From Alphaproteobacteria bacterium (GTDB lineage Bacteria > Pseudomonadota > Alphaproteobacteria > Rhizobiales > Aestuariivirgaceae): a DNA stretch of 41,195 nt. The notes under the pieces were generated by a model. That model did no database searches, was not told where the DNA came from, and worked only from the letters and a program-made list of their open reading frames with translations. The number at the start of each line of letters is the position of its first letter. Within the stretch, counting starts at the first letter, position 1. The stretch lies in NCBI GenBank assembly GCA_028868695.1, contig JAGWTZ010000025.1, positions 1 through 41,195 of the forward strand, in the 5' to 3' direction. This document shows positions 4,921-20,271 of the stretch, piece by piece. Made by a program: the position numbers and the translations under genes.

Positions 4921-6615
4921 ATGCCCAAAATGCCCGTTCCGCCAAAGAATCCGCCAGTGTTCGGCCAAGTGCAGCCAAGCCCTTTTGCCGAGGCCCGGTT
5001 TGGCCAGGCAAATCATCCGAACAAGGCGGCCAGGCCAGCTGGTGTGGCGCGCGACAGGTTGCTGATGCTGCTGCAGCAGGGCTTGGGCCTGCAGCGTGAC
5101 GGCAAATTTCTCGAGGCCGAACGGTTTTACCAAATGGTGCTGCAACAGGCGCCAGAGATGCCTGAGGCCAATAACCTGATGGGCACCATTGCCATGGAAG
5201 CCGAGGATTTCTCAACGGCAGTGGAATATCTTGAAAAGGCGGTGGCTGGCCTGCCGCGTGATCCTCTGATCCGCCACAACATTGGCAGCGCCCTGATGAG
5301 CCTGAATGACTTGCACGCCGCCATCGGCCATTTCCGCAAGGCGCTGGAGATCAAGCCGGGGCAGGTGGAGACGCTGGGGCTGATGGCCACTTGTTACAAC
5401 CGGATGGGCCGCAGCAGCGATGCCTTGCCGCTCGCTGAAAAGGCCTTGCGCATGGACGAGGGAAATGTGACGGCGCGCATGGCCAAGGCTGATGGCTTGA
5501 TCAACCTGGGGCGCATGGATGAAGCCGTCATCTATCTCAAGCAGAGCATCGCGGCTGGAATTGCGGTGCCCCGTGCCTTTCAAAGCCTCGCTGCAGCACG
5601 AAAGTTTTCAGCGGATTCTGAAGAGCTTGCCGCAGTGAAGCTTGCCCTGAGCGGAGACGGGTTCAGCGAGGAAGAGAAATCATCCTTGCACTATGCAGCC
5701 GCGAAGATGAGCAATGACGCCAAGCTGTTCGACGCTGCAATGGAACACTATCTCGCGGCCAAGGCTGTGTCTGCGAAAGCCTATGACATTGGTTCCTATG
5801 AGCGGCGGATTGACAGCTTCTCGAATTTCTTCAACCCGCTGTTTTTTGGGGCGCGGCAAAATCACGGCGATCCATCGCAGAAACCAGTGTTCATTGTGGG
5901 GATGCCACGTTCGGGCACGACGCTGACCGAACAGATCATTTCCAGCCACCATGATGTGGCGGGCGCTGGCGAGCTTGCAGAGATGACGGCCATTGCGCGA
6001 AGCCTGGGGGACAATCCGCGCAGCCAGGACCGCTATCTTGCCCGTCTGAGCGCACTTAGCGTTGAGGAATCCCGCGCCTTGGCGCAGCGCTATCTCAAGT
6101 TCATTGCGCGCACTTCGCTGGACGCCGCGCGGATCACTGACAAGATGCCCCACAATTTTGAGCATGTGGGGCTTATCTCACTGCTGTTCCCCAATGCCAC
6201 GATCATTTATTGCCGCCGCGATGCGATTGACAACTGCCTCTCTTGCTACATGAACGCCTTCAGCGAGGCGCATGCCTACAACACCGATCTTGCCAAGCTT
6301 GGGCGCTATTACCGCGCGCATGACCGGCTGATGAAGCATTGGCAAAAGGTGCTGCCGGGGCGCATCTTGGAGAATGTGTACGAGAAGCTGGTGGATGACC
6401 AGGAGGGCCAATCGCGCAAACTGATTGCGCATTGCAATCTGGAATGGGATCCGGCCTGCCTGAACTACACCGAGAACGACCGTTCGGTGACCACCATCAG
6501 CCGCTGGCAGGTGCGCCAGCCGATCTACAAGACATCGATGAAGCGCTGGAAGCCCTATGAGAAATATTTAGGGCCGCTGATCGCGGCCCTCGGTGATCTT
6601 GCGGATACGGAATGA
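4921..6615 (+). CDS. TPR-repeat sulfotransferase
   Basis: The 564-aa protein has an N-terminal array of tetratricopeptide repeats (about residues 40-270, e.g. AIGHFRKALEIKPGQVETLG and SDALPLAEKALRMDEGN) followed by a sulfotransferase domain. The PAPS 5'-phosphosulfate-binding loop FIVGMPRSGTTLTEQII lies at about 321-337, with TDKMPHNFEHVGLI and CRRDAIDNCLSCY further on as the usual DKxPxN and 3'-phosphate-binding region. Such TPR-sulfotransferases are common in alphaproteobacteria, but their acceptors (peptide, lipid or polysaccharide) are mostly unknown. There is no signal peptide, so it should be cytoplasmic. It ends immediately against the stop codon of the opposing gene. ATG 4930 is an alternative start. 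Confidence 0.88.
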   Translation: MPKMPVPPKNPPVFGQVQPSPFAEARFGQANHPNKAARPAGVARDRLLMLLQQGLGLQRDGKFLEAERFYQMVLQQAPEMPEANNLMGTIAMEAEDFSTAVEYLEKAVAGLPRDPLIRHNIGSALMSLNDLHAAIGHFRKALEIKPGQVETLGLMATCYNRMGRSSDALPLAEKALRMDEGNVTARMAKADGLINLGRMDEAVIYLKQSIAAGIAVPRAFQSLAAARKFSADSEELAAVKLALSGDGFSEEEKSSLHYAAAKMSNDAKLFDAAMEHYLAAKAVSAKAYDIGSYERRIDSFSNFFNPLFFGARQNHGDPSQKPVFIVGMPRSGTTLTEQIISSHHDVAGAGELAEMTAIARSLGDNPRSQDRYLARLSALSVEESRALAQRYLKFIARTSLDAARITDKMPHNFEHVGLISLLFPNATIIYCRRDAIDNCLSCYMNAFSEAHAYNTDLAKLGRYYRAHDRLMKHWQKVLPGRILENVYEKLVDDQEGQSRKLIAHCNLEWDPACLNYTENDRSVTTISRWQVRQPIYKTSMKRWKPYEKYLGPLIAALGDLADTE

Positions 6616-7194: not shown

Positions 7195-7297
7195 TTGACC
7201 TCGCACAGATCAGAAAGCCCCCTGGCGCGAGGGTAGCGTCAGTTTGTGAATTCGACAAGCGGTGTGGCCCGGCTATGATGCGAGGAAGGAGCTGAAC

Positions 7298-8041
7298 ATG
7301 CTGAACCTGATGATGAGCAAGGCCGGGCTGGTGCTGGCCACGCTGCTGGTCTTCTTTGTGCTGGAGCGGATTTTCCCGGTGGCGCGGGTGCGGGAAAGCT
7401 TTGCGCGGCTGGGACGCAATTTCTCGCTGGCGGGGTTCAATGCGCTGCTGGGACCCGTCATCGTGGTGCCGGTTTCCCTGTTCGCCGCGCAACATGCGCT
7501 GCTGCTGCGCCCGGCCTGGTGGAACATGGCGCTGGATCTGCTGCTGCTCGATGCATGGATCTACTTTTGGCACCGGCTCAATCATGTGCTGCCGTTCCTC
7601 TGGCGTTTCCATGAGATCCACCACCTGGATGAGACGCTGGATACGTCGAGCGCCCTGCGGTTTCATTTTGGCGAAGTGCTGCTTTCGGCGCTGGCACGGG
7701 CAGGGGTGATCTGGCTTTTCGGCATCCCCTTCGGAACCGTGCTGCTGTTCGAAACCCTGGTTGTGGTGGCGGCGCTGTTCCAGCACTCGAATGTGGAAAT
7801 TCCTGCCGGATTCGAGAAGGCCTTGTCTTGGTTGATTGTGACGCCGTCGATCCATTGGGTGCATCATCATGCGCTGCGGCGTGACACGGATTCAAACTAT
7901 TCCACCGTTCTTTCGGTGTGGGACAGGCTTTTTGGCACGCGCAGCGCAGGCCCACGGACGGCGGAAATGGCGATTGGCGTTGAGGGCGGGCAGGATCAAG
8001 GCCTGGTCCGTCTCGTGCTGCGGCCATTCGGTTTCCGTTAG
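7298..8041 (+). CDS. Fatty acid hydroxylase / sterol desaturase family membrane protein
   Basis: The 247-aa protein has four to five hydrophobic segments and the histidine clusters of the di-iron membrane hydroxylases: HRLNH (92-96), HEIHH (105-109), H163 in QHSN, and HWVHH (186-190). The family (FA_hydroxylase) hydroxylates or desaturates lipid chains, sterols and carotenoids using O2. With a sphingolipid locus starting about 760 bp downstream, hydroxylation of a fatty acyl or long-chain-base moiety is a plausible inference, but the gene is not in that operon. ATG 7298 follows AGGAAGGAG, so the in-frame upstream start at 7262 is not needed. Confidence 0.88.
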   Translation: MLNLMMSKAGLVLATLLVFFVLERIFPVARVRESFARLGRNFSLAGFNALLGPVIVVPVSLFAAQHALLLRPAWWNMALDLLLLDAWIYFWHRLNHVLPFLWRFHEIHHLDETLDTSSALRFHFGEVLLSALARAGVIWLFGIPFGTVLLFETLVVVAALFQHSNVEIPAGFEKALSWLIVTPSIHWVHHHALRRDTDSNYSTVLSVWDRLFGTRSAGPRTAEMAIGVEGGQDQGLVRLVLRPFGFR

Positions 8042-8133: not shown

Positions 8134-8655
8134 ATGGCGCAGGCCGAGGCCTTTTTGCAGGCACTGAGACAGGCACGATTGACCGAAGCGGCACAGCTTG
8201 ATGCGGTGCTGAACCTGCGCGATGCGCGCAGCCTGCGCCTTGGCGCGTTGCGTGACGCGGTGCTGCCCTTGCTCAAGGGCAATGATTCGGCTGTGGAACT
8301 GTTTGAGCTCAACCTTCAGGATGGCGAGAAGCCGCGGTTGTGGATAGACCTGATTTCCGCAGTGGAGATGGAGCCGGATCCCAAGACCTACCGCCTGGTG
8401 CAGCAGCGCGATGGCGCGCGTGAGACGCTGCTGGAGACTGCCCAGCTTGACGAGATGCGCGATTATCTCGTGCGCTTTCTGGCGCACCGCGTGGTGGCGC
8501 AAGAGCGGCACGCGGCTGGTCTTTCACATCTGCTGAAGCCGGGCAAACGGGGATACAGCCTCTTTGCGCTGGTTTATGCGTGGTTCACCGGGCTCATGTT
8601 TGGCGTATTGAGCCTTGTGGCTTGGGCGCTGGCGGTTGGGCGCCTCAAATTCTGA
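8134..8655 (+). CDS. Hypothetical protein with C-terminal membrane segment
   Basis: A 173-aa protein that I do not recognise. Residues 1-140 are soluble, charged and helix-prone (RDARSLRLGALRDAVLPLL, LWIDLISAVEMEPDPKTYRL). A short basic stretch (KPGKRGYS) then leads into one hydrophobic segment at about 148-168, so it looks tail-anchored with the bulk in the cytoplasm. Codon usage is like that of its neighbours, which supports a real gene. It stands alone between the hydroxylase and the sphingolipid operon. Confidence 0.7.
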   Translation: MAQAEAFLQALRQARLTEAAQLDAVLNLRDARSLRLGALRDAVLPLLKGNDSAVELFELNLQDGEKPRLWIDLISAVEMEPDPKTYRLVQQRDGARETLLETAQLDEMRDYLVRFLAHRVVAQERHAAGLSHLLKPGKRGYSLFALVYAWFTGLMFGVLSLVAWALAVGRLKF

Positions 8656-8804
8656 GCGGCAACCGCGTTTTCATGTCATATGGATGACGGTACCGCTGAA
8701 AAGTTGCGGGTGCTTGTGGTTACAATCTGAAACACCATGTGATTTCCGCCCTGTGCCTCCCAGTTGGTAAATTTGCCCTCAAGTTTGAGAGGTCAAGGCA
8801 CACC

Positions 8805-10580
8805 GTGAGCGGCACAGTTGCAGTCAACACAATGTCAGAAGCGCAGGCTTTGGTGAAAACCCCCACGGTGAACCGTGATTTGCCACAGCGCCTGGCGGAT
8901 TTCTCCACGCTGGCTGAGGGCCTCGACTATGCCGCCCAAGGCGTGACTGGCTTCAATTTCTATTCAGGCCGTGGCTCGCTTGCCCATGTGTTGCCGCATG
9001 CCGAGTTGCGCCGCCAGGCTTTGGTGACAGCGCGCAAATTGCTTTCTTCCGGCCTCAAGCGGATGGACCGCGTGGCAATTGTTGCTGAGACCGGGCCTGA
9101 ATTCGTCATTACGTTTTTTGCCTGCCAATATGCGGGCCTCATTCCGTGCCCGGTGCCTTACAGCATGTATATCGGTGGCAAGGATGCCTATGAGACGCGG
9201 ATCGCCGGCATGCTGAAGGCGGCTGATGCCCATTGCATCGTAACGCCTGCGGAACAGGTGGAAAGCATCCGCGCCGCGGCCGCCATGGCCAAGGTTGAAC
9301 TGGTGTTCACCCATGAGGAATTGGCGGCCTTGCCGGAAGCGCTGTCCAAGCTGCAAGGCTTTGGCGGGGATGACGTTGCTTATATCCAATATTCATCGGG
9401 TTCCACTTCGGCGCCCAAGGGCGTCCTGATTTCGCAGAAAGCCATCATGGCCAATGCGCGCGGCATGCTGGTGTTCGGCACGCAGACGAAGCCAACCGAC
9501 CGCGGCTTCTCCTGGCTTCCGCTCTATCACGACATGGGGCTTGTGGGCTTCTGCCTTGGGCCGCTGATGTCCCAATCCAGTGTTGACTATCTGGCGACCA
9601 CGGCTTTCGCCCGCCGCCCCGGCCTGTGGCTGAAACTGATTTCGGACAACCGCTGCACCATCTCCTTCTCGCCCACGTTTGGCTATGAACTTGCTGCCAA
9701 GCGCATCGGCTCTGAGGCCGCCAAGCTTGATCTCTCCTGCTGGCGTGCGGCAGGCATCGGCGGCGACATGGTGCGCCCAGACGTGCTCGCTGAATTCACC
9801 AAGGCGCTGGAAGTGGCGAAGTTCGCTCCCAACGCTTTCCTGCCTTGCTATGGCATGGCGGAATCCACGCTGGCCATTTCATTCCCGAAGTCCGGCACGC
9901 CCATCCGTGTTGACCATGTGGACCGCAAGGCGGTGCGCCAGGACAACAAGGCAATCCCGGTTGCCGCGGGCACGGCTGACTCGCGCGGCTATGTGGTTTG
10001 CGGGCGGATCATCGCCGGGCATGAGCTGGAAGTGCGCGATGGCGCGGGCGCGCTGCTGGCGGAGCGCGAGATTGGCCGTATCTTCGTCAAAGGGCCCAGC
10101 CTGATGAGTGGTTATTTCAACAACCCGGAAGCGACCGGCGAAGTGATTGACGCGCGCGGCTTCCTTGATACCGGCGATATGGGCTATTTGCTGGACGGCG
10201 AGATTGTCATCACCGGCCGGGCCAAGGACCTTATCCTGCACAATGGCCGCAACATCTGGCCGCAAGACATTGAATGGACGGCGGAGCAGAACGCCCATCT
10301 CAAATCCGGCGATGTGGCGGCCTTTGCCATCGAAGGCAGTGATGGCGATGATGAGGTTGTGGTGCTGGTGGAATGCCGCGCCACTGAAATTGCCGAGCAG
10401 GAAACCTTGCGCCGGGAAGTGGGCAAGCTGGTGCACCAAGGCTCTGGCGTTGATTGCAAGGTGGAGCTGGTGGCGCCGCGCAGCTTGCCTTTCACCTCTT
10501 CGGGCAAGCTTTCGCGGGCCGGCGCGCGCGCCAAATATCTCGCGGGCGAAATGACGGTGTTCGCGCCGCAGACGGAGTAA
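8805..10580 (+). CDS. Fatty-acyl-AMP ligase / acyl-ACP synthetase of the sphingolipid operon
   Basis: An ANL-superfamily adenylating enzyme that activates a fatty acid as acyl-AMP and, given the ACP two genes downstream, probably loads it onto that carrier. Visible motifs: YIQYSSGSTSAPKGV (phosphate-binding loop), WLPLYHDMGLVG, PCYGMAESTLAISFP, DTGDMGYLLDGEIVITGRAKDLI and the C-terminal PFTSSGKLSR with the catalytic lysine. The YSSGSTSAPKG and LPLYHDMG forms are typical of the FAAL branch. Caulobacter has a homologous ligase in its spt cluster. The start is uncertain: GTG 8805 with AGAGG upstream is chosen (591 aa); ATG 8832 and the ORF-initial codon at 8739 are alternatives. The next gene begins 6 nt after the stop. 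Confidence 0.88.
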   Translation: MSGTVAVNTMSEAQALVKTPTVNRDLPQRLADFSTLAEGLDYAAQGVTGFNFYSGRGSLAHVLPHAELRRQALVTARKLLSSGLKRMDRVAIVAETGPEFVITFFACQYAGLIPCPVPYSMYIGGKDAYETRIAGMLKAADAHCIVTPAEQVESIRAAAAMAKVELVFTHEELAALPEALSKLQGFGGDDVAYIQYSSGSTSAPKGVLISQKAIMANARGMLVFGTQTKPTDRGFSWLPLYHDMGLVGFCLGPLMSQSSVDYLATTAFARRPGLWLKLISDNRCTISFSPTFGYELAAKRIGSEAAKLDLSCWRAAGIGGDMVRPDVLAEFTKALEVAKFAPNAFLPCYGMAESTLAISFPKSGTPIRVDHVDRKAVRQDNKAIPVAAGTADSRGYVVCGRIIAGHELEVRDGAGALLAEREIGRIFVKGPSLMSGYFNNPEATGEVIDARGFLDTGDMGYLLDGEIVITGRAKDLILHNGRNIWPQDIEWTAEQNAHLKSGDVAAFAIEGSDGDDEVVVLVECRATEIAEQETLRREVGKLVHQGSGVDCKVELVAPRSLPFTSSGKLSRAGARAKYLAGEMTVFAPQTE

Positions 10581-10586
10581 TCCGCG

Positions 10587-11534
10587 ATGGGTTTGCGCGT
10601 GGCGCTGACCGGGGGAACCGGCTTTTCCGGCGCACACATTATTCCAGCCCTGTTGGACGCAGGCCATAGCGTTGCGGCTTTGGCGCGAAGGCCTGATGCC
10701 CTGAAGGGCCAGGCGGTGGACATCATCGAAGGCGACCTTGCTGATCAAGGCGCGCTGCACCGGCTGGTTGACCAGGCTGATGTTGTCGTGCACGCCGCGG
10801 CCGCCACGTCCGCAAAAAATCGCGCGGGCTATTTCGCTGCAAATCTCGATGGCACACGTCATGTGTTTCAAGCTGCGCGCATGGCCCGCGTGAAGCGCTT
10901 TGTTTTCGTCTCATCCCTCGCGGCGCGTGAGCCACTGCTTTCCGGCTATGCCGCGAGCAAGGCGGCGGCGGAACATTATGTGACGGGGCAGCATGGCGGC
11001 CCTGAAGTTCTCATTCTGCGCCCGCCTGCCATCTATGGTCCGGGAGACCGGGCCACTTTGCCGCTGATGAAGGCGCTGCGCCAGAGGAGGGCCTTTGTGC
11101 CGGGGCGGCGCGGGCAGAAATTCTCGTTGCTGCATGTACGCGATTTCGGCGCGGTGATTGCCGCGGCCGTGGGAAGCGATGAAACCGGGCTTGTTGAACT
11201 TGGCTTCCCTGATGAAGCGCAAGGCTGGGAAAGCCTGGCCGCATTGCACCGTGGCATCACGGGCCTGCCGCGAAGTATGGTTTTTCTGCCGAAGCCCTTG
11301 GCCAGCAGCTTTGCCGCGCTGGCGGAATTGGCAGCGCAAGTGACCGGCAGGCCCTCAATGGTGAACACAGGTAAGGTGAATGAGCTTTATCACCGGGACT
11401 GGGTGGCGCGGGAGGTAACCAACCTGCTGCAAAACCCAACACCGCTGGCGGATGGCCTGGCCGAGACCCTTGGCTGGTATGAACAACAAGGCTGGTTGCC
11501 GCCGCTGGCCCAAAAGACTAGAACCCCCGCATGA
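10587..11534 (+). CDS. cerR: NAD(P)-dependent epimerase-type reductase, CerR-like (3-ketosphinganine reductase)
   Basis: A 315-aa extended short-chain dehydrogenase. The nucleotide-binding motif TGGTGFSG is at residues 8-15, the VVVHAAA region near 67, and the catalytic SGYAASK block at 119-125 (Y121, K125). In Caulobacter the epimerase-like gene next to spt is CerR, which reduces 3-ketosphinganine to sphinganine even though it looks like a sugar-nucleotide epimerase. Position between acyl ligase and acp-spt supports the same role here; the assignment is by synteny and family, as the sequence alone cannot exclude another substrate. Its stop overlaps the acp start (ATGA at 11531). Confidence 0.85.
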   Translation: MGLRVALTGGTGFSGAHIIPALLDAGHSVAALARRPDALKGQAVDIIEGDLADQGALHRLVDQADVVVHAAAATSAKNRAGYFAANLDGTRHVFQAARMARVKRFVFVSSLAAREPLLSGYAASKAAAEHYVTGQHGGPEVLILRPPAIYGPGDRATLPLMKALRQRRAFVPGRRGQKFSLLHVRDFGAVIAAAVGSDETGLVELGFPDEAQGWESLAALHRGITGLPRSMVFLPKPLASSFAALAELAAQVTGRPSMVNTGKVNELYHRDWVAREVTNLLQNPTPLADGLAETLGWYEQQGWLPPLAQKTRTPA

Positions 11535-11779
11535 CTGACACATCCGAAATCATTCCCGTTCTCGTTTCTCTGCTGGCGCCTTTCAACCCCGAGAACAAGG
11601 CGCTCTCGGAGGTCACCGACATTCCGGCCGAACTCAATATCGACTCAGTGGGCGTTCTTGATTTCATCATGGAAGTGGAAGACCATTTCGACATTGAAAT
11701 CCCCATGAATGCCGTGGCCAACATCCGCACAATCGGCGAGCTGGCGGCCTATGTGCAATCGCAGTTGAACAAGGGCTGA
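11531..11779 (+). CDS. Acyl carrier protein of the sphingolipid operon
   Basis: An 82-aa acidic protein with the phosphopantetheine attachment motif NIDSVGVLDF, serine 39, followed by the helix VEDHFDIEIP and a C-terminal helix, as in ACPs. The DSV motif differs slightly from the DSL of the housekeeping AcpP, indicating a dedicated carrier. It would hold the acyl chain that Spt condenses with serine. It is translationally coupled to the upstream reductase (ATGA) and lies 2 nt before spt. Confidence 0.93.
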   Translation: MTDTSEIIPVLVSLLAPFNPENKALSEVTDIPAELNIDSVGVLDFIMEVEDHFDIEIPMNAVANIRTIGELAAYVQSQLNKG

Positions 11780-11781
11780 GC

Positions 11782-12966
11782 ATGGTTGACCTTCTCGAAA
11801 AGCACAAAGGTATCGCGGACCGTTTCCAGCGCATGGTCGACATGGGCATCAATGGCCTTGGCGTCACCAATGACAAGATGATTTCACCAACGCGCGCGAT
11901 GGTGGGCGGGCGTGAGATCCTGCTTGCGGGCACCAACAACTACATGGGCATCACCTTTGATCCGCGCTGCATTGCCGCCGGGCAAAAGGCGCTTGCCGAA
12001 TATGGCACGGGAACCACGGGTTCGCGCATCGCCAACGGCTCATTCGCCATGCACAAGGAGCTGGAGAAGGAACTTGCCGGCTTTTTGAACCTGCAACATT
12101 GCGTGGTGTTCACGACAGGATATCAGGCGAACCTGGGCATGCTCTCCGGCCTCGCGGGGCCGAAGGACACGATCTATCTCGACGCTGATTCACATTCCTC
12201 AATCTATGACGGCTGCACGCTCTCGGGTGCCAAACTGGTGCGCTTCCGGCACAATGACGCCGCGGATCTCGACAAGCGCCTGTCGCGCAGCGAAGACACT
12301 GAAGGTGGCCGCCTCGTGGTCTTGGAAGGCATCTACTCGATGCTGGGCGACCGTGCGCCGCTCAAGGACTTCGTGGAACTGAAGAAAAAGCACGAGTTCC
12401 AGCTTCTGGTGGATGATGCACACAGCTTTGGCGTTCTCGGCCCCAATGGCCGCGGCCTTGGTGATGAGGCGGGCCTCGAGGAGCATGTGGATTTTGTGGT
12501 CGGCACATTCTCGAAAAGCGTGGGTGCCATCGGCGGCTTCGGCGCGGGCAACCACCCGCTGTTTGAAACGCTGCGTTATGCCATGCGGCCCTATATGTTC
12601 ACGGCCTCTTCCTCGCCGGCGTCGATTGCCACATCCATTGCTGCCTTGCAGGTGTTAAAGGCAGAACCTGAACGCCGCGCACGGCTGTGGGCCAATTCGG
12701 AACAGCTTTACAAGGGCCTGAAGGGCCTGGGCTTCGAGATGGGCACTGACCAGGTGAGCCCGGTGATCGCCGTGAAAATGCCGGATGAGCTTTCCACCAT
12801 CGTCAAGTGGAATGCGCTGTTCCAGGGCGGGGTTTACGTCAACATGGCCGTGCCGCCGGGCACGCCGAACAGGATGTGTTTGCTGCGCTGCTCGGTCTCC
12901 GCCGCGCATACGCCCGAAGACATCAACCGCATCATCGGCATCTTCAAGGATGTCGTGGCCGCGTGA
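11782..12966 (+). CDS. spt: Serine palmitoyltransferase
   Basis: A 394-aa PLP-dependent alpha-oxoamine synthase that condenses L-serine with an activated acyl chain to give 3-ketosphinganine, the committed step of sphingolipid synthesis. Evidence: GTGTTGSRIANGS near residues 74-86, DADSHSS (substrate/PLP histidine), LVDDAHSFGVLG (the aspartate that holds the pyridine nitrogen), and the Schiff-base lysine K245 in GTFSKSVGAIGG. AONS and KBL share this fold, but the acp, acyl ligase, reductase and ceramide synthase around it fix the function. It is a soluble, cytoplasmic, homodimeric type like the Sphingomonas and Caulobacter enzymes. Its last 23 bp overlap the opposing kinase gene. Confidence 0.93.
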   Translation: MVDLLEKHKGIADRFQRMVDMGINGLGVTNDKMISPTRAMVGGREILLAGTNNYMGITFDPRCIAAGQKALAEYGTGTTGSRIANGSFAMHKELEKELAGFLNLQHCVVFTTGYQANLGMLSGLAGPKDTIYLDADSHSSIYDGCTLSGAKLVRFRHNDAADLDKRLSRSEDTEGGRLVVLEGIYSMLGDRAPLKDFVELKKKHEFQLLVDDAHSFGVLGPNGRGLGDEAGLEEHVDFVVGTFSKSVGAIGGFGAGNHPLFETLRYAMRPYMFTASSSPASIATSIAALQVLKAEPERRARLWANSEQLYKGLKGLGFEMGTDQVSPVIAVKMPDELSTIVKWNALFQGGVYVNMAVPPGTPNRMCLLRCSVSAAHTPEDINRIIGIFKDVVAA

Positions 12967-13915
12967 TGAAGCGGAAGGCGGGGCCTGCTTCGACACGGAG
13001 CGGGCCATCCACCGGGCCTTCGAAAAACTCTCCGTCCATCACAAATGGCTCGGCACAAGTGATGGCGAAGCTGTGCCCGGAGAAACTCACAGCACCGGGC
13101 GGGACTTTCCGTTTCTCGCCACCATACATCACCGGCCAGGCCCAGCGCAGCACATTGGGAACCGGATAGGGGATTGATGTGGCGCGGATGGGGCCGTGCC
13201 GTTCGCCCCAGAATGGCTTTGTCCTGAAGAACAGGTGTTCAAGCGTTGTGGCGATGAACATGAGATGATCGCCTTGCAGCAGCTTGCGGCCTCCGCTTTC
13301 AACGCTGATGGGGCAGGGCCTGTCGAGGCGTGACGAATCATGCGGTGCGGCGCGGGTGAATGCTGCCTTTGCCAAGCCTGATGCCATGGTGGCGAAGCTC
13401 GCGAAGGAACCTTTGACACCCTTGTCATTGTAGGAAAGCTGGGCGTGGCGGGTGGCTGTGGCGGCTGCGCCAGCACCCAAGGTGAAACCATGGCGCGCGT
13501 GCTGACCGCGCGGGTTGGTCACGCGCATCGTGTGCCGGGTGAGAGTTTCTGCCGGCGGCAGGCTCGCGACAAACTTTGCCTGTGAGCGGATGTTTTTCTC
13601 CGCGAAGCCCAAATCGCCGGCCGACAGATTGGTCGTGCCGTGCGGCAGCACGCAGAGCGATGGCGGCGCATGCCACTGGCCGCTCTCGGCGATGTGCGAA
13701 AGAACTGCCTGCACGGTGCCATCGCCCGAGGAAATGAACAGGTCAGTAATGCGCGCCTTGGCAAAGGCCTGCATGGCGGGATCGAGGTCATCGAACCGGT
13801 GGAGGGTTTCGACATGCACATTGGGTGCGGCCTCAAGCAGGGCCTTCAGCTTCGCGCCCTTGCCGTTGCCACGGCCGGAAGCAAGGTTGATGAGAACGGC
13901 GGCGCGGCGCGTCAT
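12944..13915 (-). CDS. cpgB: Diacylglycerol/ceramide kinase family protein (CpgB-like)
   Basis: A 323-aa lipid kinase of the DAGK catalytic family: LINLASGRGNGKG at the N-terminus, the nucleotide motif ISSGDGTVQAVL (SGDGT at 63-67), LPHGTTNLSAGD at about 90-101, and FVMDGEFF near the end. In Caulobacter a DAGK-family gene in the sphingolipid cluster, CpgB, phosphorylates ceramide. This gene is last in the ceramide synthase operon, so ceramide is the likely substrate; diacylglycerol or another lipid remains possible. ATG 13915 is used because it forms an ATGA overlap with the upstream permease gene. The first glycine of the usual GGDGT is serine here. Confidence 0.82.
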   Translation of the reverse strand: MTRRAAVLINLASGRGNGKGAKLKALLEAAPNVHVETLHRFDDLDPAMQAFAKARITDLFISSGDGTVQAVLSHIAESGQWHAPPSLCVLPHGTTNLSAGDLGFAEKNIRSQAKFVASLPPAETLTRHTMRVTNPRGQHARHGFTLGAGAAATATRHAQLSYNDKGVKGSFASFATMASGLAKAAFTRAAPHDSSRLDRPCPISVESGGRKLLQGDHLMFIATTLEHLFFRTKPFWGERHGPIRATSIPYPVPNVLRWAWPVMYGGEKRKVPPGAVSFSGHSFAITCAEPFVMDGEFFEGPVDGPLRVEAGPAFRFITRPRHP

Positions 13916-14979
13916 ACGTGATCGGTGCGGGCCATCAGGGCCACGGCGATGGCGGCAAAGACGATCAGCGGCCCCCACGCTGCCATCCATGGCGAAATGG
14001 TGCCTTGCTCACCCAGCGTCATGGCCACGCCATCGGCAATGAAATAGACAAAGCCCAAGGCCACGCCGGCGGCAAAGATCAAGCCCAGGCCGCCACCGCG
14101 GCGGAAACTGGTGCCCAACGGCACGCAAAGAATGAGCATGACGACGGCGATGAATGGCGGGGTCAGGCGCTTTTGCCACCAGGTTTTGTAAACATGGACC
14201 GGGCGCACGCCGAATCCATCATTGGCGATGAAGGTGGAAAGTTCGGCGAGCGTCATTTCCTCAGGTGCTGCCACCTTGTTTGAGGCCAAGCGCATGGGGC
14301 CCTGATAGACCATTTGCGCCAGATGGCTGGGCTGCTCACCGGAGGCATAGTAGGTGGTGACATTGTTCAACAGCCAATTGCCATCCTTCTGCAGCGCGCT
14401 TTCGGCAAAAATCTGGGATTGCAGCTGGCCAGCGGGTTCACGGCGGAAAATGATCACGTTGAACAGCGTGTCGCCTTCGCTGGAAACGCGCTCGGCGCGC
14501 ATGATGTCGTTGCCGGAGCGGATCCACACCGGGTCATTGGCGGCGGTGTCGAACTTGCGCGTGGCATAGTCTCCGATGCCCCAACTGCGCAGTGCGGGTG
14601 CGGCGGCAGGAACGCCCCTGTCCATCACCACGAAATGGAATGTTCCCACGATCAGCGCCAGCGGCAGCAGCTTGACGATGAGGCGCGAGGGCGAAATACC
14701 CGTGGCCCAAATGGCAGTGAGCTCGTTGCGGTAGCTCAACTCCGTCATCACAAGAAGCAGTGCAAGCAGCATGCTGGTGGGCAGGAACAGCGAGATGACG
14801 CCCGGCAGGCGCGCCAACGCATAGGTGATGACGGCGAGCAGGGGGTTGGCATTGAGGCGCAAGATGTCAGTGAGGAAGCTGACGATTTCCAATGTCACCA
14901 CAAAAGCGCAAAGGCCGAAGAGAATGACACCGAGGCGGATCAGCACCATGCGTGTGAGAAGGCGGGCGATCAGCGACAT
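13912..14979 (-). CDS. LptF/LptG-family permease (YjgP/YjgQ), unpaired
   Basis: A 355-aa protein with three N-terminal membrane segments (about 13-35, 48-80, 95-117), a periplasmic beta-jellyroll-type domain (about 120-265) and three C-terminal segments (about 272-350), the topology of LptF and LptG. Those proteins normally work as a pair with the LptB ATPase to extract LPS from the inner membrane. Here only one copy lies in an operon of ceramide genes, 3 nt after a phosphoesterase gene and in ATGA overlap with the lipid kinase. It may therefore form a homodimer, or pair with a distant LptF/G, to move a sphingolipid toward the outer membrane. That role is inferred from context; LPS transport is the alternative. 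Confidence 0.85.
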   Translation of the reverse strand: MSLIARLLTRMVLIRLGVILFGLCAFVVTLEIVSFLTDILRLNANPLLAVITYALARLPGVISLFLPTSMLLALLLVMTELSYRNELTAIWATGISPSRLIVKLLPLALIVGTFHFVVMDRGVPAAAPALRSWGIGDYATRKFDTAANDPVWIRSGNDIMRAERVSSEGDTLFNVIIFRREPAGQLQSQIFAESALQKDGNWLLNNVTTYYASGEQPSHLAQMVYQGPMRLASNKVAAPEEMTLAELSTFIANDGFGVRPVHVYKTWWQKRLTPPFIAVVMLILCVPLGTSFRRGGGLGLIFAAGVALGFVYFIADGVAMTLGEQGTISPWMAAWGPLIVFAAIAVALMARTDHV

Positions 14980-14982
14980 TGC

Positions 14983-15876
14983 CTAGCCCCCCACCACAAA
15001 ATCATGCGCGGGCACAAAGCCTGCGGCGGCGTCCTGCCATTTGCGGATGTGCACCCGCGTTTGCCATTGGCCCTTGTGGCGCGAGATTTCGTACAGGTTC
15101 CATTCCGCCGGGTGGTGGGCGTCGGCAGCCATGGTGGCCGAAGGCACGCCAATGGCGGGCACGCGCGAATTGTTGTGTTCAAGCCAATGAAATTCGCGGC
15201 GGTGGTTGTGGCCGTGGATCACCAGCTCCACGCCCTCTTCACACAGAATATTGCGCAATTCCGGCGCGTCGGTGAGTGCGCGCAACCTGGCGGCCATGCC
15301 GGGACCGGGAGGGTGGTGGATCATCACAAGACGGTAAAAGCCCTTGGCGCGCAACTCGGCCAGCAGCAAGCGCAAATGGTGGCGCTGGGTGGGGCCAAGG
15401 CGCCCTTCGGCGCTGTGCAGCCAGCGTGGCTCAGCGCTGTTGAGGCCAATGAGCGCCACATTCCGGCGCAGGCGCACATAGGGGAAGGGCGCCTCTGTCT
15501 TCATGTCACCTGCCATGAAGGGCGCGAAATAGGCCAAGCCCTTTTCCGGGGAAACCGGCACATAGGCATCATGATTGCCCGGCGTAAAGGACACCCATTC
15601 CGGGTGGCCCAGCCTGTCCAGCCAGGCGCGCAGGCGCGGGAACTCCAGCGGGCTGGCAATGTTGGTGGCATCACCTGTGAAGGCCACATGTTGCGGCCGG
15701 TGGGCGTGGATGTCCCGCAACAGGGCCTCGGCAATGCCGGGGAGGTGCTTCTTGCGGCGGTTGAAGGCCCAAGACGCCGCGCCAATCACCCGCTTGAAGC
15801 GGAAGGCGTGAAAGGCAGCCCCGCGCGGCAAGGGCCCAAGATGGAGATCAGAGAAATGGGCGAGGGTGAAATTCAC
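14983..15876 (-). CDS. Calcineurin-like metallophosphoesterase
   Basis: A 297-aa protein with all five metal-binding motifs of the family: DLHLG (DxH) near residue 10, FTGDATN (GDxxN), PGNHDAY, MIHHPP and the terminal GHNH. It lacks a signal peptide and should face the cytoplasm. Its gene overlaps the ceramide synthase stop by ATGA and precedes the LptF/G-like permease by 3 nt, so all are co-translated. Related phosphoesterases include LpxH/LpxI-type pyrophosphatases and phosphodiesterases, so trimming a phosphorylated sphingolipid head group is an attractive hypothesis, but no substrate can be read from the sequence. Confidence 0.87.
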   Translation of the reverse strand: MNFTLAHFSDLHLGPLPRGAAFHAFRFKRVIGAASWAFNRRKKHLPGIAEALLRDIHAHRPQHVAFTGDATNIASPLEFPRLRAWLDRLGHPEWVSFTPGNHDAYVPVSPEKGLAYFAPFMAGDMKTEAPFPYVRLRRNVALIGLNSAEPRWLHSAEGRLGPTQRHHLRLLLAELRAKGFYRLVMIHHPPGPGMAARLRALTDAPELRNILCEEGVELVIHGHNHRREFHWLEHNNSRVPAIGVPSATMAADAHHPAEWNLYEISRHKGQWQTRVHIRKWQDAAAGFVPAHDFVVGG

Positions 15877-17021
15877 AGCGGCTTTTCATACACGCGGTAT
15901 GTTTTGTAGACGCGGCTGCCCATGCTTTCGAGGATATGGCGCACGCGCATGTTATCTTCCAGGATCCACGAGTATTCACCATGGGTGACGCCCTTGCTGA
16001 TCACATGGTCTGACGAGGCGCGGATGGCGGCGAGTGCGAGACCAGCGCCAATGGCGCCATCCTGATATTTCTTCTTCACGCCCATCAATGGCACGCGGAC
16101 GGAACGGGATTTGCCGCTGATCACGCGCGGCAACAGCTTGGCCCAGCCGAAGGGCAGAACCCGGCCATTGAGGCCCTGGAACCACTCATTGATATTGGCA
16201 ATGGCCAAGCAAAAGGCAGCAGGCTCTCCCTTCCAGGAGGCGAATTGCACGGCCTTGGCGTCCAGCAGCATCTTGAACAGGCTGGCGAGGTTGTTCACTT
16301 CGGCGCGCGTGAAAGGCACGAAATTCCAGTTCTCCGACCATGCATCGTTGAAGATGTCCATCACGATGTCGATTTCGCTGGCCATGTTCTTCTTGTTCAA
16401 GGGGCGCACGGTGAGATCGCCCGAAGCCATCATGCGGTCCACCATCTTGCGCATGGTGGGAGGCAGGCCCTTGATGTTGTCGAACTCATAGGCCAGCACG
16501 TCCTTGGCCTTGGCGTAGCCCTGTTCCTCGACGCGCGCCTGATAGTAGCGCGGCGCGTGGCCCATCATCATGTTGGGCATGGTCTCAAAGCCGTCCACCA
16601 ACAGGCCGATCTCATCGTTGATCGAGAATGAAAACGGTCCAAGCGCGCGCTTCATGCCTTGGGCGCGCAGCCAATCCTCGGCGGTCTTGAACAGCGCTGA
16701 GAAAATGGCTGGATCATTCTGCGCTTCGAGGAAGCCGAACATCCCCGTGGCGTCCTGGTGGCGTTCGATGTGCAATTGGTCGACTTGCGCGGAAATGCGG
16801 CCGACCGGCTTGCCATTTTTCTCGGCGATGAAGAGCTGGCCCTTGGCGTGCTGGAAATAGGGGTTCTTCTTCTCGCTCAAATGTTCCAGCCGCTCGAGAA
16901 ACAGCGGCGCCACCCAGGCCTTGTCCCCTTCATAAATTGGGAATGGAACGTTGAGAAAAGCGATCTTGTCCTGTTTGGTCATAACCGGCCGGATGGTGAC
17001 AGGGGAAACGGAGGCGGACAT
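15873..17021 (-). CDS. bcerS: Bacterial ceramide synthase (bCerS), GNAT-like acyltransferase
   Basis: A 382-aa protein resembling the double-GNAT-fold proteins that include the Caulobacter ceramide synthase, which N-acylates sphinganine. Conserved stretches are [59 protein letters not shown], the central [15 protein letters not shown] and the C-terminal [20 protein letters not shown]. It is unrelated to eukaryotic TLC-type ceramide synthases. It is first in the minus-strand operon that converges on spt. ATG 17021 is taken; an upstream in-frame codon (17108) would overlap the divergent Nudix start. The function rests on family resemblance plus the complete pathway next to it. Confidence 0.85.
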
Positions 17022-17687: not shown

Positions 17688-18239
17688 ATGGCCCCGATGA
17701 CTGTGAAACCTTCCCTGACTGAACAAAGTGCTGCCGATGGCGCAGCTGTTGAGACCCTGCTTGACTTGAGCTTTGGCCCTTCGCGGCGCACCAAAACATC
17801 CTACCGGCTGCGTGAAGGCTCATCGCCCTTGCCGCATCTCTCGCTGGTGATCCGCGAACATGAGCTTGGGCTGGTCGGCGCCATCAGCTTCTGGCCGCTC
17901 AGCGTCGGGCCTGCTGAAACACCTGCGATCATGCTGGGGCCGCTTGCTGTTCACCCCGGACGGCAACGGATGGGCATTGGCCTTGAGTTGATGCGCGAGG
18001 GCATTGCGCGGGCCAAGGCCGCCGGCCATGGGCTGATCATCCTGATTGGTGATGCGCCCTATTATGCCCGCGAGGGCTTCGTGCAAGTGCCGGAAGGGCA
18101 AATACAGGTGCCGGGGCCGGTGGACCCAAAGCGGCTGCTCTATCTCGAACTGATTCCCCGTGCCCTTGCCAAGACAATGGGTCTGGCGCTGCCACCATGG
18201 CGCTGGCGGGAGATCAACGCCCTTCGCGCGCCCACATGA
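17688..18239 (+). CDS. GNAT family N-acetyltransferase
   Basis: A 183-aa YhbS-type acetyltransferase. The acetyl-CoA-binding motif A, MLGPLAVHPGRQRMGIGLELM, lies at about 84-104, followed by the beta5 segment LIILIGDAPYYAREGF. The acceptor is unknown. Starts at ATG 17688 or ATG 17697 are both possible (a GTG lies at 17685); none has a strong ribosome-binding site. Its 3' end overlaps the 3' end of the next, opposing gene by 26 bp. Confidence 0.82.
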   Translation: MAPMTVKPSLTEQSAADGAAVETLLDLSFGPSRRTKTSYRLREGSSPLPHLSLVIREHELGLVGAISFWPLSVGPAETPAIMLGPLAVHPGRQRMGIGLELMREGIARAKAAGHGLIILIGDAPYYAREGFVQVPEGQIQVPGPVDPKRLLYLELIPRALAKTMGLALPPWRWREINALRAPT

Positions 18240-20271
18240 AGCACGCAGCCAGCAACAAGGCTGCGAGGCTGAGCAGGCTGGAGAACAGCGCCACTTCCCG
18301 GATGGCCAGCACCTTGTATTGACCGTTGGCCTTGAGGTTGAACCAGCCAGCCCCGGCAAAGGCGCCGGTGCCGCCCTGCTTGGCGATATGCGGCAGGCCA
18401 TCTTCCAGCCAGAACACGCCGCCCCCGGTGGCCGCTGCGGCTGGCTGCAGTTTCTTGTCGGTTGCCAACAGGTCCGACATTTCGCGCGCGTCGCCTGCGC
18501 CCACTTCAACAACTGTTTCAAGCGCGCCATCCCGGACCAGCACCAGCCCCGGTTCGATGGCGGGCACATGGCCGGAGAAATGGCCGGGAGAAACCTGGCT
18601 AAGCGGCACGTCGGTGGCTTTGCCTGAAGGCCATTGCAGGCTGGCTGACTTGTAATTGTCGCCCAGGCCGAAGCGGTCCACCACGATGTCCGTGCCGGAT
18701 TGATGGGCAGTGAGGCGGTCTTCCTCAAGCTCCGGCTCTTTCATCAGCCAGTGGGAAATGCGCTTGAGCATTTCTGCCTCCGGCCCGCCGCCCTCATAGC
18801 CGCGCGACCAAAGCCAGCCCTGATCCGAAAGGATTTGTGCGACACGGCCCTGTTCCACGCGGCGCAATACGAGGAGGGGTTTGGCTTCCGGGCCTTGCAT
18901 CAGGACTTCGGTTGCAGGGTCGGCATCAGCCGTTGCGTCAATGATGCGGAACCATGTGCCCCATTTGGGATCCGTGGCGCTGGCGCCCGGCAGGCTTTGG
19001 GTGACGGGGTGGCGCTCCCCGCTTTGGGTGAGCAGCGGCTTGTAGGGCGTGTTGATCACTTGTCCTGTCGGCTGGGCCGCCAGCACATCGCCGAGCGGCG
19101 TTGAGGCAAGGCCATCAGCTTCCGCAAAATCCGGCCCGGAGGAAACCAGCAGCGCGCCACCCTTGCGCACATAGTCTGCGATATTGCCAATGAACGAGTC
19201 TGGCAGGATTGCCTCGCGCTGGTAACGGTCAAAGATCACGAGGTCAAACTTGTCCAGCTTGTCGACAAACAGTTCCTTGGTGGGGAAGGCGATCAGCGAA
19301 AGCTCGGTATTGGGCGTGCCGTCCTGCTTTTCCGGCGGGCGAAGAATGGTGAAATGCACGAGGTCTACAGCGGAATCTGCTTTCAGCAGGTTGCGCCACG
19401 TGCGCTCCCCGGGATTGGGCTGGCCAGACACGAGCAGCACGCGCAGCCTGTCCCTGATGCCTTCGACGACGGCGAGGGCCTGGTTATTGGCGGTGGAAAG
19501 CTCGCCCTGGCGCGTGGCAGCGGAAAGCGAGATGAAATTCTTGCCGGCGTGACTCACATCGACGTCCACCTCGGCCTGTACGCCGGGCTTGACGACAAGG
19601 CGTTTGGCTTCAGCCCCAGCAGGCGAGACAGTCACTTCAACATCGCCGTTGCCGCCCTGATCCTCCACGTGGAAAGTGATTTTGGCGCTTTGGCCGACCA
19701 GCGTGAATTGCGGGGCGTGGTCAATCACCAGCCGCCGGTCACTTTCCTTGCGGCTGCCGCTGATCAGGCCATGCAGCGGGCCCGGCAATTGCGCCAAGGC
19801 CTTGCCCTGCGGCACGTCATGGATCTGCCCATCGGTGATGAATACCGCTCCTGCAAAGCGGTTTTGTGGAATGTCGGCGAGCGCGCGGGTGAGAGCCGCA
19901 AAGGCACGCGTGCCATCATGGCCTTCCTCGACGCCGGAAGTGACTGTGACAATGCGGACTTCCGTGTTGGGCAGCGCGGTGATGCGCTGTTTCAGGTCTT
20001 CAGCGGCCTTGTCTGTCTGGGCCATGCGGGTGCCAAGTTTCTGGCTGTCGGAATGGTCCACGACCAGCACGGCAATGTCGTTGAGCGCCTCGCGTTCATT
20101 CTGGTGGAACACGGGATTGGCCAGGGCGGCGAGCAACACTGCACCCGTCAGCCCGCGCAGCAGCGCACCTCTGGCGCGTTTCCAGAAAAGGAACACGGTG
20201 AGGGCCACGACAGCGGCGGCAAAGGCAATGAGCCAGAGGGAACCAACAAGCGGCGCGAAAGTCAGGCTCAT
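18214..20271 (-). CDS. Membrane protein with VWA-like and GATase1-like domains (MoxR operon)
   Basis: A 685-aa protein: two N-terminal membrane segments (about 8-30 and 37-53), then a VWA-like region with a MIDAS-type DHSDS (72-76) and a later FITDGQIHD. Next comes a Rossmann/GATase1-like region (LRVLLVSGQPNPGE to YVRKGGALLVSSGPDF, about 280-390), and a C-terminal membrane segment at about 658-680. It is the last gene of a MoxR - DUF58 - DUF4159 operon. Such Bat/aerotolerance-type operons are widespread, and the membrane proteins are thought to be clients or effectors of the MoxR chaperone ATPase. The start overlaps the upstream gene's stop (ATGA at 20271-20268). Confidence 0.8.
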   Translation of the reverse strand: MSLTFAPLVGSLWLIAFAAAVVALTVFLFWKRARGALLRGLTGAVLLAALANPVFHQNEREALNDIAVLVVDHSDSQKLGTRMAQTDKAAEDLKQRITALPNTEVRIVTVTSGVEEGHDGTRAFAALTRALADIPQNRFAGAVFITDGQIHDVPQGKALAQLPGPLHGLISGSRKESDRRLVIDHAPQFTLVGQSAKITFHVEDQGGNGDVEVTVSPAGAEAKRLVVKPGVQAEVDVDVSHAGKNFISLSAATRQGELSTANNQALAVVEGIRDRLRVLLVSGQPNPGERTWRNLLKADSAVDLVHFTILRPPEKQDGTPNTELSLIAFPTKELFVDKLDKFDLVIFDRYQREAILPDSFIGNIADYVRKGGALLVSSGPDFAEADGLASTPLGDVLAAQPTGQVINTPYKPLLTQSGERHPVTQSLPGASATDPKWGTWFRIIDATADADPATEVLMQGPEAKPLLVLRRVEQGRVAQILSDQGWLWSRGYEGGGPEAEMLKRISHWLMKEPELEEDRLTAHQSGTDIVVDRFGLGDNYKSASLQWPSGKATDVPLSQVSPGHFSGHVPAIEPGLVLVRDGALETVVEVGAGDAREMSDLLATDKKLQPAAAATGGGVFWLEDGLPHIAKQGGTGAFAGAGWFNLKANGQYKVLAIREVALFSSLLSLAALLLAACFMWAREGR

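Follow-up and report, generated by a model that had tools for sequence, protein, structure and literature searches.

The stretch of DNA analyzed here, which we call the window, is a contig of 41,195 nucleotides (JAGWTZ010000025.1 of assembly GCA_028868695.1; C86 in our numbering) from a genome of the genus Aestuariivirga, Hyphomicrobiales, that is 3.09 Mb in size and 99.7% complete. Between positions 8739 and 17021 it carries eight genes that we assign, on the basis of families, synteny and relatives, to a Caulobacter-type pathway for sphingolipid synthesis and probably also export; the Caulobacter protein sequences themselves were not compared. Judged by the enzymes it encodes, the locus is an unremarkable example of a known and widespread pathway. 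The notable variant is its setting, in a genus of Hyphomicrobiales in which no lipid A genes were detected and whose LptF/LptG permeases, as far as they were placed, are all of the sphingolipid type. The sphingolipid of Aestuariivirga may have taken over the place of lipopolysaccharide (LPS) and its lipid A at the cell surface.

The eight genes form two convergent operons. The plus-strand operon begins with a fatty acyl-AMP ligase or acyl-acyl carrier protein (ACP) synthetase, AasR-like (8739 to 10580; NF006624, 764 bits against a cut-off of 600; PF00501), for which several candidate starts lie from 8739 to 8832. There follow a CerR-like reductase of the extended short-chain dehydrogenase/reductase type (10587 to 11534; PF01370, 106 bits, and synteny with Spt in sister loci), a dedicated, AcpR-like ACP (11531 to 11779; PF00550, 37 bits against 20.8), and the serine palmitoyltransferase Spt (11782 to 12966). 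The minus-strand operon consists of the GNAT-like bacterial ceramide synthase bCerS, recognized by its family relatives (15873 to 17021), a calcineurin-like phosphodiesterase or metallophosphoesterase (14983 to 15876; PF00149, 41 bits against 21.5), an LptG-type permease (13912 to 14979; PF03739, 214 bits against 27.9) that a tree places in the sphingolipid-locus clade, LptG2, and a lipid kinase of the DAGK family that is a CpgB-like candidate for ceramide kinase (12944 to 13915; PF00781, 50.9 bits against 23.6). The kinase start was taken as the ATG at 13915, and the longer reading frame reaches 13990. Overlaps of 4 bases join CerR to ACP, bCerS to the phosphoesterase and, if the kinase starts at 13915, LptG to the kinase, and the 3' ends of Spt and the kinase overlap by 23 bases. 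The sister loci examined show the same gene order. Tight packing, family matches and recurring order are together far beyond chance.

An initial annotation had proposed a complete Caulobacter-type ceramide locus of eight genes in two convergent operons. Reading-frame coordinates and family searches bear out the genes, their strands and their arrangement, and the five ceramide genes (Spt, acyl-ACP synthetase, ACP, CerR and bCerS) and a CpgB-like kinase are all found together. Moreover, bCerS stands in an operon separate from the other four ceramide genes, as is stated to be the rule (PMC11324152). We note that two loci seem to break this rule (L203, 8980 to 15472, and L204, 9792 to 16200, from genomes G088 and G246), with ligase, CerR, ACP, Spt, phosphoesterase and bCerS consecutive on one strand. 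The locus is not complete, however: LptF is encoded by itself on another contig (C56), and none of the CpgA-, CpgC- and CpgD-like genes known from sister loci is present. The suggestion that the host might lie outside the few groups known to make sphingolipids is likewise not supported. At least 584 stretches of public genomes encode bCerS relatives (one scan), and the 80 named bCerS loci come from groups that include Alpha-, Beta- and Gammaproteobacteria, Desulfobulbaceae, Nitrospirota, Acidobacteriota and Gemmatimonadetes; wide occurrence is already published (PMC11087976).

The identity of Spt was confirmed both by profile (NF047599, 577 bits against 500) and by a sequence search of the PDB, where the solved Spt structures 2x8u (437 bits) and 2jg2 were the top matches. 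The protein contains the motifs GTFSKSVG and DADSHSSIYDG. It passes the NCBI model SerpalmtaseBetaP (577 against 500) and fails SerpalmtaseAlphaP (482 against 670) despite its alphaproteobacterial host. A substitution at a position that is arginine in a Sphingomonas-like Spt seemed odd and was set aside, as it is common to other Spt proteins of the loci examined. CerR was considered as the hopanoid enzyme HpnA and rejected (92 bits against 368). bCerS is slightly below the Pfam GNAT cut-off (19.9 against 20.7 bits), is 47 to 83% identical to 20 other aligned proteins, and had no solved structure related by sequence in the PDB search. The kinase has the DAGK_cat domain and reads SSGDGT, as in most genus loci read, instead of GGDGT; it is a candidate kinase of the ceramide phosphoglycerate pathway. 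In Nitrosomonas loci, the same motif is AGDGT.

Lipid A markers and Lpt permeases in Aestuariivirga

The lipid A genes of the genus were sought in 25 genomes, 13 of them 95 to 100% complete, and compared with those of 16 other genomes of the order. LpxC (PF03331) was found in 0 of 25 genus genomes versus 14 of 16 relatives, LpxB in 0 versus 11, and WaaA in 0 versus 12. bCerS was found in 24 of the 25, and the sole miss is a genome that is 66% complete. The genus assignment rests on one of the 25, G018, in which a stretch of 18 kb is identical to Aestuariivirga litoralis KCTC 52945. Two order relatives, G028 and G038, also gave no LpxC, LpxB or WaaA and carry bCerS, and a third, G030, has LpxC, WaaA and bCerS, with no match for LpxB. 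Another contig of G030 (L052, 278 to 9406) encodes a further bCerS-like protein, a divergent relative of Spt and an unpaired LptF-like permease. A literature search, limited to titles and the starts of abstracts with subscription journals mostly outside it, showed, among the matches listed, no report of LPS loss in Aestuariivirga or Hyphomicrobiales and none linking LpxC loss with bCerS.

The Lpt machinery is retained. LptD was found in 25 of 25 genus genomes and in 41 of 41 with the order relatives included. The genome of the window encodes just two LptF/LptG proteins, namely, the LptG of the window and the LptF on contig C56, and in the window sub-branch LptF and LptG are encoded on two contigs. 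Two such proteins were counted in 18 genus genomes and three in 7 (one of the 7 by way of a match below the cut-off). Each of the 24 bCerS-bearing genus genomes has one or more LptF/LptG genes no farther than about 4 kb from bCerS; in two of them, the bCerS match there is a fragment at a contig end. Moreover, the LpxC-bearing G030 has the order pepA-lptF-lptG-lptD-surA-pdxA-ksgA, and the genome of the window has pepA-lptD-surA-pdxA-ksgA, with about 100 bases from pepA to lptD and no lptF-lptG in between.

A tree of 125 LptF/LptG sequences places the LptG of the window among LptG proteins of sphingolipid loci and the C56 protein among the corresponding LptF proteins, in clades distinct from those of the LPS type. 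The tree, built quickly and with SH-aLRT support, has some long branches and included all LptF/LptG proteins of 10 of the 25 genus genomes; no LPS-type pair was present in those 10. Its loci were picked by hand, and the 18 of the 80 named loci that entered it were chosen for holding an LptF/LptG pair. Two loci labeled as sphingolipid type (L054 and L209) had no bCerS within the stretch examined. The 12 loci labeled as LPS type comprise eight that adjoin LptD and four (L191, L193, L195 and L210) labeled for being away from bCerS. A further clade of LptF/LptG pairs linked to bCerS stands separately in the tree (L078, L082, L083, L085, L090, L097, L117, L124, L142 and L194), with hosts that include Nitrosomonas, Pseudomonas, Desulfobulbaceae, Nitrospirota and Acidocella. 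Overall, 49 of the 80 named bCerS loci hold an LptF/LptG pair, as do 30 of the 38 loci of at least 20.5 kb, in several phyla.

LpxC and bCerS across the Alphaproteobacteria

The association seen in Aestuariivirga extends to the class. One even draw of 290 alphaproteobacterial genomes, for which a completeness of at least 95% was requested, contained LpxC in 254 and bCerS in 44. The 36 genomes that lack LpxC, 16 of them assigned by elimination, divide into 27 with bCerS and 9 without, and those with LpxC divide into 17 with bCerS and 237 without (Fisher P = 4.5e-19). Because genomes are related, they were collapsed to 133 families taken from labels, and bCerS was then present in 13 of 20 LpxC-lacking families versus 10 of 113 others (P = 1.4e-7); in 12 of the 13, both features occur in one genome. 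By size, which was rounded, bCerS was present in 23 of 23 LpxC-lacking genomes of at least 3.0 Mb and in 4 of 13 smaller ones. One LpxC-lacking, bCerS-bearing genome is the Sphingomonas-like G049, and its Spt matches nearly the whole length of the solved Spt 2jg2, which we take to come from Sphingomonas.

The number of permeases follows the same classes. Four or more LptF/LptG proteins were found in 15 of the 17 genomes with both LpxC and bCerS versus 1 of the 237 with LpxC alone, and exactly two were found in 22 of the 27 with bCerS alone. LptF/LptG and LptD are both absent from 5 of the 9 genomes with neither. Besides the window, the bCerS regions of 16 of the 27 LpxC-lacking genomes were inspected, and 13 hold an LptF/LptG pair; of the other three, two come from genomes without Lpt (G088 and G246) and one (G184) from a genome whose sole permease with coordinates lies about 25 kb away. 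Two further genomes, G319 and G329, were assigned as LptD-less by elimination and both have LpxC.

We favor, by a modest margin over even odds, the idea that lipid A loss has recurred in free-living Alphaproteobacteria and was enabled by the sphingolipid pathway, with Aestuariivirga as one such case within Hyphomicrobiales. A lineage would at first carry a second, sphingolipid-dedicated LptF/LptG pair beside bCerS. Lipid A synthesis and the LPS-type pair next to lptD would then be lost together, and the shared bridge and LptD would thereby be turned into a sphingolipid exporter.

Head-group genes, the phosphoesterase and neighboring genes

What distinguishes the window from some of its sister loci is gene content. 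The locus L058 of the same genus carries in addition an ABC transporter beside bCerS, two nucleotidyltransferases, a HIT protein, LptF, a CDP-alcohol phosphotransferase and a 291-amino-acid protein adjoining the kinase, and L050, from the same order, resembles it in the part that was read. In description and position, the extra genes are like CC_1152, CC_1153, CC_1159 and CC_1161 of Caulobacter (PMC11324152 and PMC12275187), and CpgA-, CpgC- and CpgD-like genes are present in L058 by family or position. There is no room for them in the loci of the window, L056 or L061, the rest of the window's own genome lying outside the search, and L056 and L061 also have no kinase. The ABC transporter of L058 (5983 to 7746) and L050 (4121 to 5950) lies directly upstream of bCerS with fused membrane and ATPase domains, an MsbA-like layout, and is a candidate sphingolipid flippase.

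The initial annotation had left two genes without an assigned role. The permease does not belong in that category, as LptF2/LptG2 of Caulobacter (CC_1155 and CC_1156; PMC11324152) are proposed counterparts already in print. The phosphoesterase does, and it is a fair candidate for a step without an assigned role. D10, H12, D69, N101, H102, H187 and H223, which we take to form its metal site, are invariant across 24 aligned proteins, and the second His of the GHxH motif varies. A PDB search found no solved relative by sequence. The predicted structure (pLDDT 91.9) had Lmo2642 as its first match, with GpdQ, Rv0805, SMPDL3A and acid sphingomyelinase among the nearest solved folds; the last four ranked above LpxH, and identification as LpxH was rejected.

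The phosphoesterase gene is present in 29 of the 80 named bCerS loci and in 16 of the 38 of at least 20.5 kb, and no copy was detected in the loci of Nitrosomonas, Pseudomonas asuensis and Azotobacter. CC_1158 of Caulobacter, which it resembles by description and position, is likewise reported absent from N. eutropha, P. luteola and A. vinelandii (PMC11324152), and because both are missing from relatives in these genera, the two fit as counterparts. The phosphoesterase is retained in L056 and L061, which show no kinase or Cpg-like gene, and in the one-strand loci L203 and L204, which makes it less likely that its role is confined to the second phosphoglycerate. Its persistence without kinase or Cpg genes, together with the resemblance of its predicted fold to GpdQ, Rv0805, SMPDL3A and acid sphingomyelinase, makes a step close to ceramide itself possible.

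Upstream of the ligase is a fatty acid hydroxylase superfamily protein (7262 to 8041, plus strand; PF04116, 95 bits), also found near the ligase in loci of G013 and G003; the sister loci L056 and L061, which have this gene, are without Cpg-like genes. It is a candidate that may hydroxylate the sphingolipid of the window sub-branch. A 173-amino-acid protein without a match in a Pfam search (8134 to 8655, plus strand) adjoins the ligase and is a conserved neighbor in L056, L061, L070 and L073. Two adjacent genes at 18214 to 22985, the second with BatA and DUF4159 domains, adjoin the sphingolipid locus in those genus loci read that extend there. A TPR-sulfotransferase (4921 to 6615; PF13469) was considered as a head-group enzyme but had no match in L049 to L067.

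Proposed pathway, alternatives and known systems

On our best reading of these sequences, sphingolipid has replaced lipid A in Aestuariivirga, and a dedicated LptF/LptG pair exports it. Gene identity, synteny, the missing markers and the retained LptD are the observations from which we infer enzyme activities, an export route and a membrane chemistry, and we give a probability of roughly 70% that dihydroceramide is made by the locus and converted by phosphorylation into an anionic sphingolipid, which the dedicated pair then receives. The acyl-AMP ligase would load a fatty acid onto ACP, and Spt would condense it with serine. The CpgB-type kinase would phosphorylate ceramide. At the weakest step, the substrate of the GpdQ- or sphingomyelinase-like phosphodiesterase would be an intermediate close to ceramide that carries a phospho or nucleotide linkage. 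Finally, LptG of the window and LptF of contig C56 would extract the lipid and pass it to the Lpt bridge and LptD.

Several observations weigh against replacement and dedicated export. Three of the 27 LpxC-lacking genomes with bCerS (G088, G246 and G306, of one genus) have neither LptF/LptG nor LptD; thus, sphingolipids without lipid A need not use Lpt everywhere. These three would have an outer membrane without LPS or Lpt. Conversely, G082, G085, G141 and G292 keep LptF/LptG and LptD; thus, Lpt can persist with neither LpxC nor bCerS, and 17 genomes have both. Of the lipid A genes, the search covered LpxC, LpxB and WaaA, with LpxA, LpxD and LpxK outside it, and of the Lpt genes it covered LptD, LptF and LptG, with LptA, LptB and LptC outside it. 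Single markers have misses, because among the LpxC-bearing order relatives three gave no match for LpxB and two none for WaaA. The pepA-lptD site was examined in the genome of the window only, and G028 has a different gene upstream of lptD. The window sub-branch loci of G003 and G013 are without the kinase. Finally, an LptG of the LPS type (L055, 7399) is retained in G038, where none of the three lipid A markers is present; it is possibly a relic of recent lipid A loss.

These points lend themselves to other explanations. The absence of CpgA-, CpgC- and CpgD-like genes from the loci of the window, L056 and L061, the lack of the kinase in the latter two, and the adjoining fatty acid hydroxylase would be in keeping with a sub-branch that no longer makes phosphosphingolipid, in which a plain or hydroxylated, perhaps glycosylated, ceramide serves at the surface and the kinase has a different lipid as its substrate. 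We consider this doubtful, though the strongest of the alternatives, as the search for Cpg-like genes covered loci and not genes elsewhere in the genome, and the window operon retains a kinase with the motif common to most genus loci read. Alternatively, sphingolipids might be made while the adjoining LptF/LptG exports a glycolipid, hopanoid or other lipid, with its linkage to bCerS historical and lipid A loss permitted otherwise. The genomes with bCerS and no Lpt and those with Lpt and neither marker would be accommodated, and PMC11324152 states that transport was not investigated, with no transport experiment seen in the literature examined. That idea seems unlikely, however, given the permease pairs in most of the longer named loci of several phyla, the near confinement of a second pair to bCerS genomes, and the separation of the two kinds of pair in the tree. 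Least probable by far is an ordinary Caulobacter-type locus in an LPS-bearing host whose lipid A genes are too divergent or were missed. The marker misses in order relatives and the retention of LptD and Lpt permeases could be read that way, but three separate families are missing from all 25 genomes, LpxC is detected in most of the class, and the genome of the window has no lptFG at the site next to lptD.

Replacement of lipid A by sphingolipid bears on two published questions. As of 2024, the route that bacterial sphingolipids take to the outer membrane was described as not known (PMC11324152), and it is an open question why certain species can dispense with lipid A (PMC10964400). Aestuariivirga litoralis KCTC 52945 is cultured, has no detectable LpxC, LpxB or WaaA, and has LptF/LptG of the sphingolipid type only, such that Lpt export could be tested there without LPS as a confounder. 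Moreover, the combination of bCerS with the absence of LpxC may provide a simple genomic predictor of LPS-free alphaproteobacteria.

The closest known systems each share part of this arrangement. Caulobacter crescentus CC_1152 to CC_1168 similarly includes, by description, acyl-ACP synthetase, CerR, ACP, Spt, bCerS, a CpgB-like kinase, a phosphoesterase and a second LptF/LptG (PMC11324152), but Caulobacter has LPS and CpgA, CpgC and CpgD, whereas LptF and CpgA-, CpgC- and CpgD-like genes are missing from the window locus, and LpxC, LpxB and WaaA were not detected in its host. Sphingomonas is reported to be naturally without lipid A and to make sphingolipids (PMC10964400), and G049, assigned as Sphingomonas-like by its Spt, and G282 combine bCerS, LptD and one LptF/LptG pair beside bCerS with no LpxC. 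Aestuariivirga, however, belongs to a different order, Hyphomicrobiales, in which LpxC occurs in 14 of 16 sampled families. Finally, the permease of the window belongs by sequence to the same LptF/LptG family as the LPS exporter LptB2FG, and LptD is kept, but the LptF/LptG proteins of the genus genomes placed in the tree fall in separate sphingolipid-locus clades, and in the window sub-branch the two subunits are encoded on two contigs.

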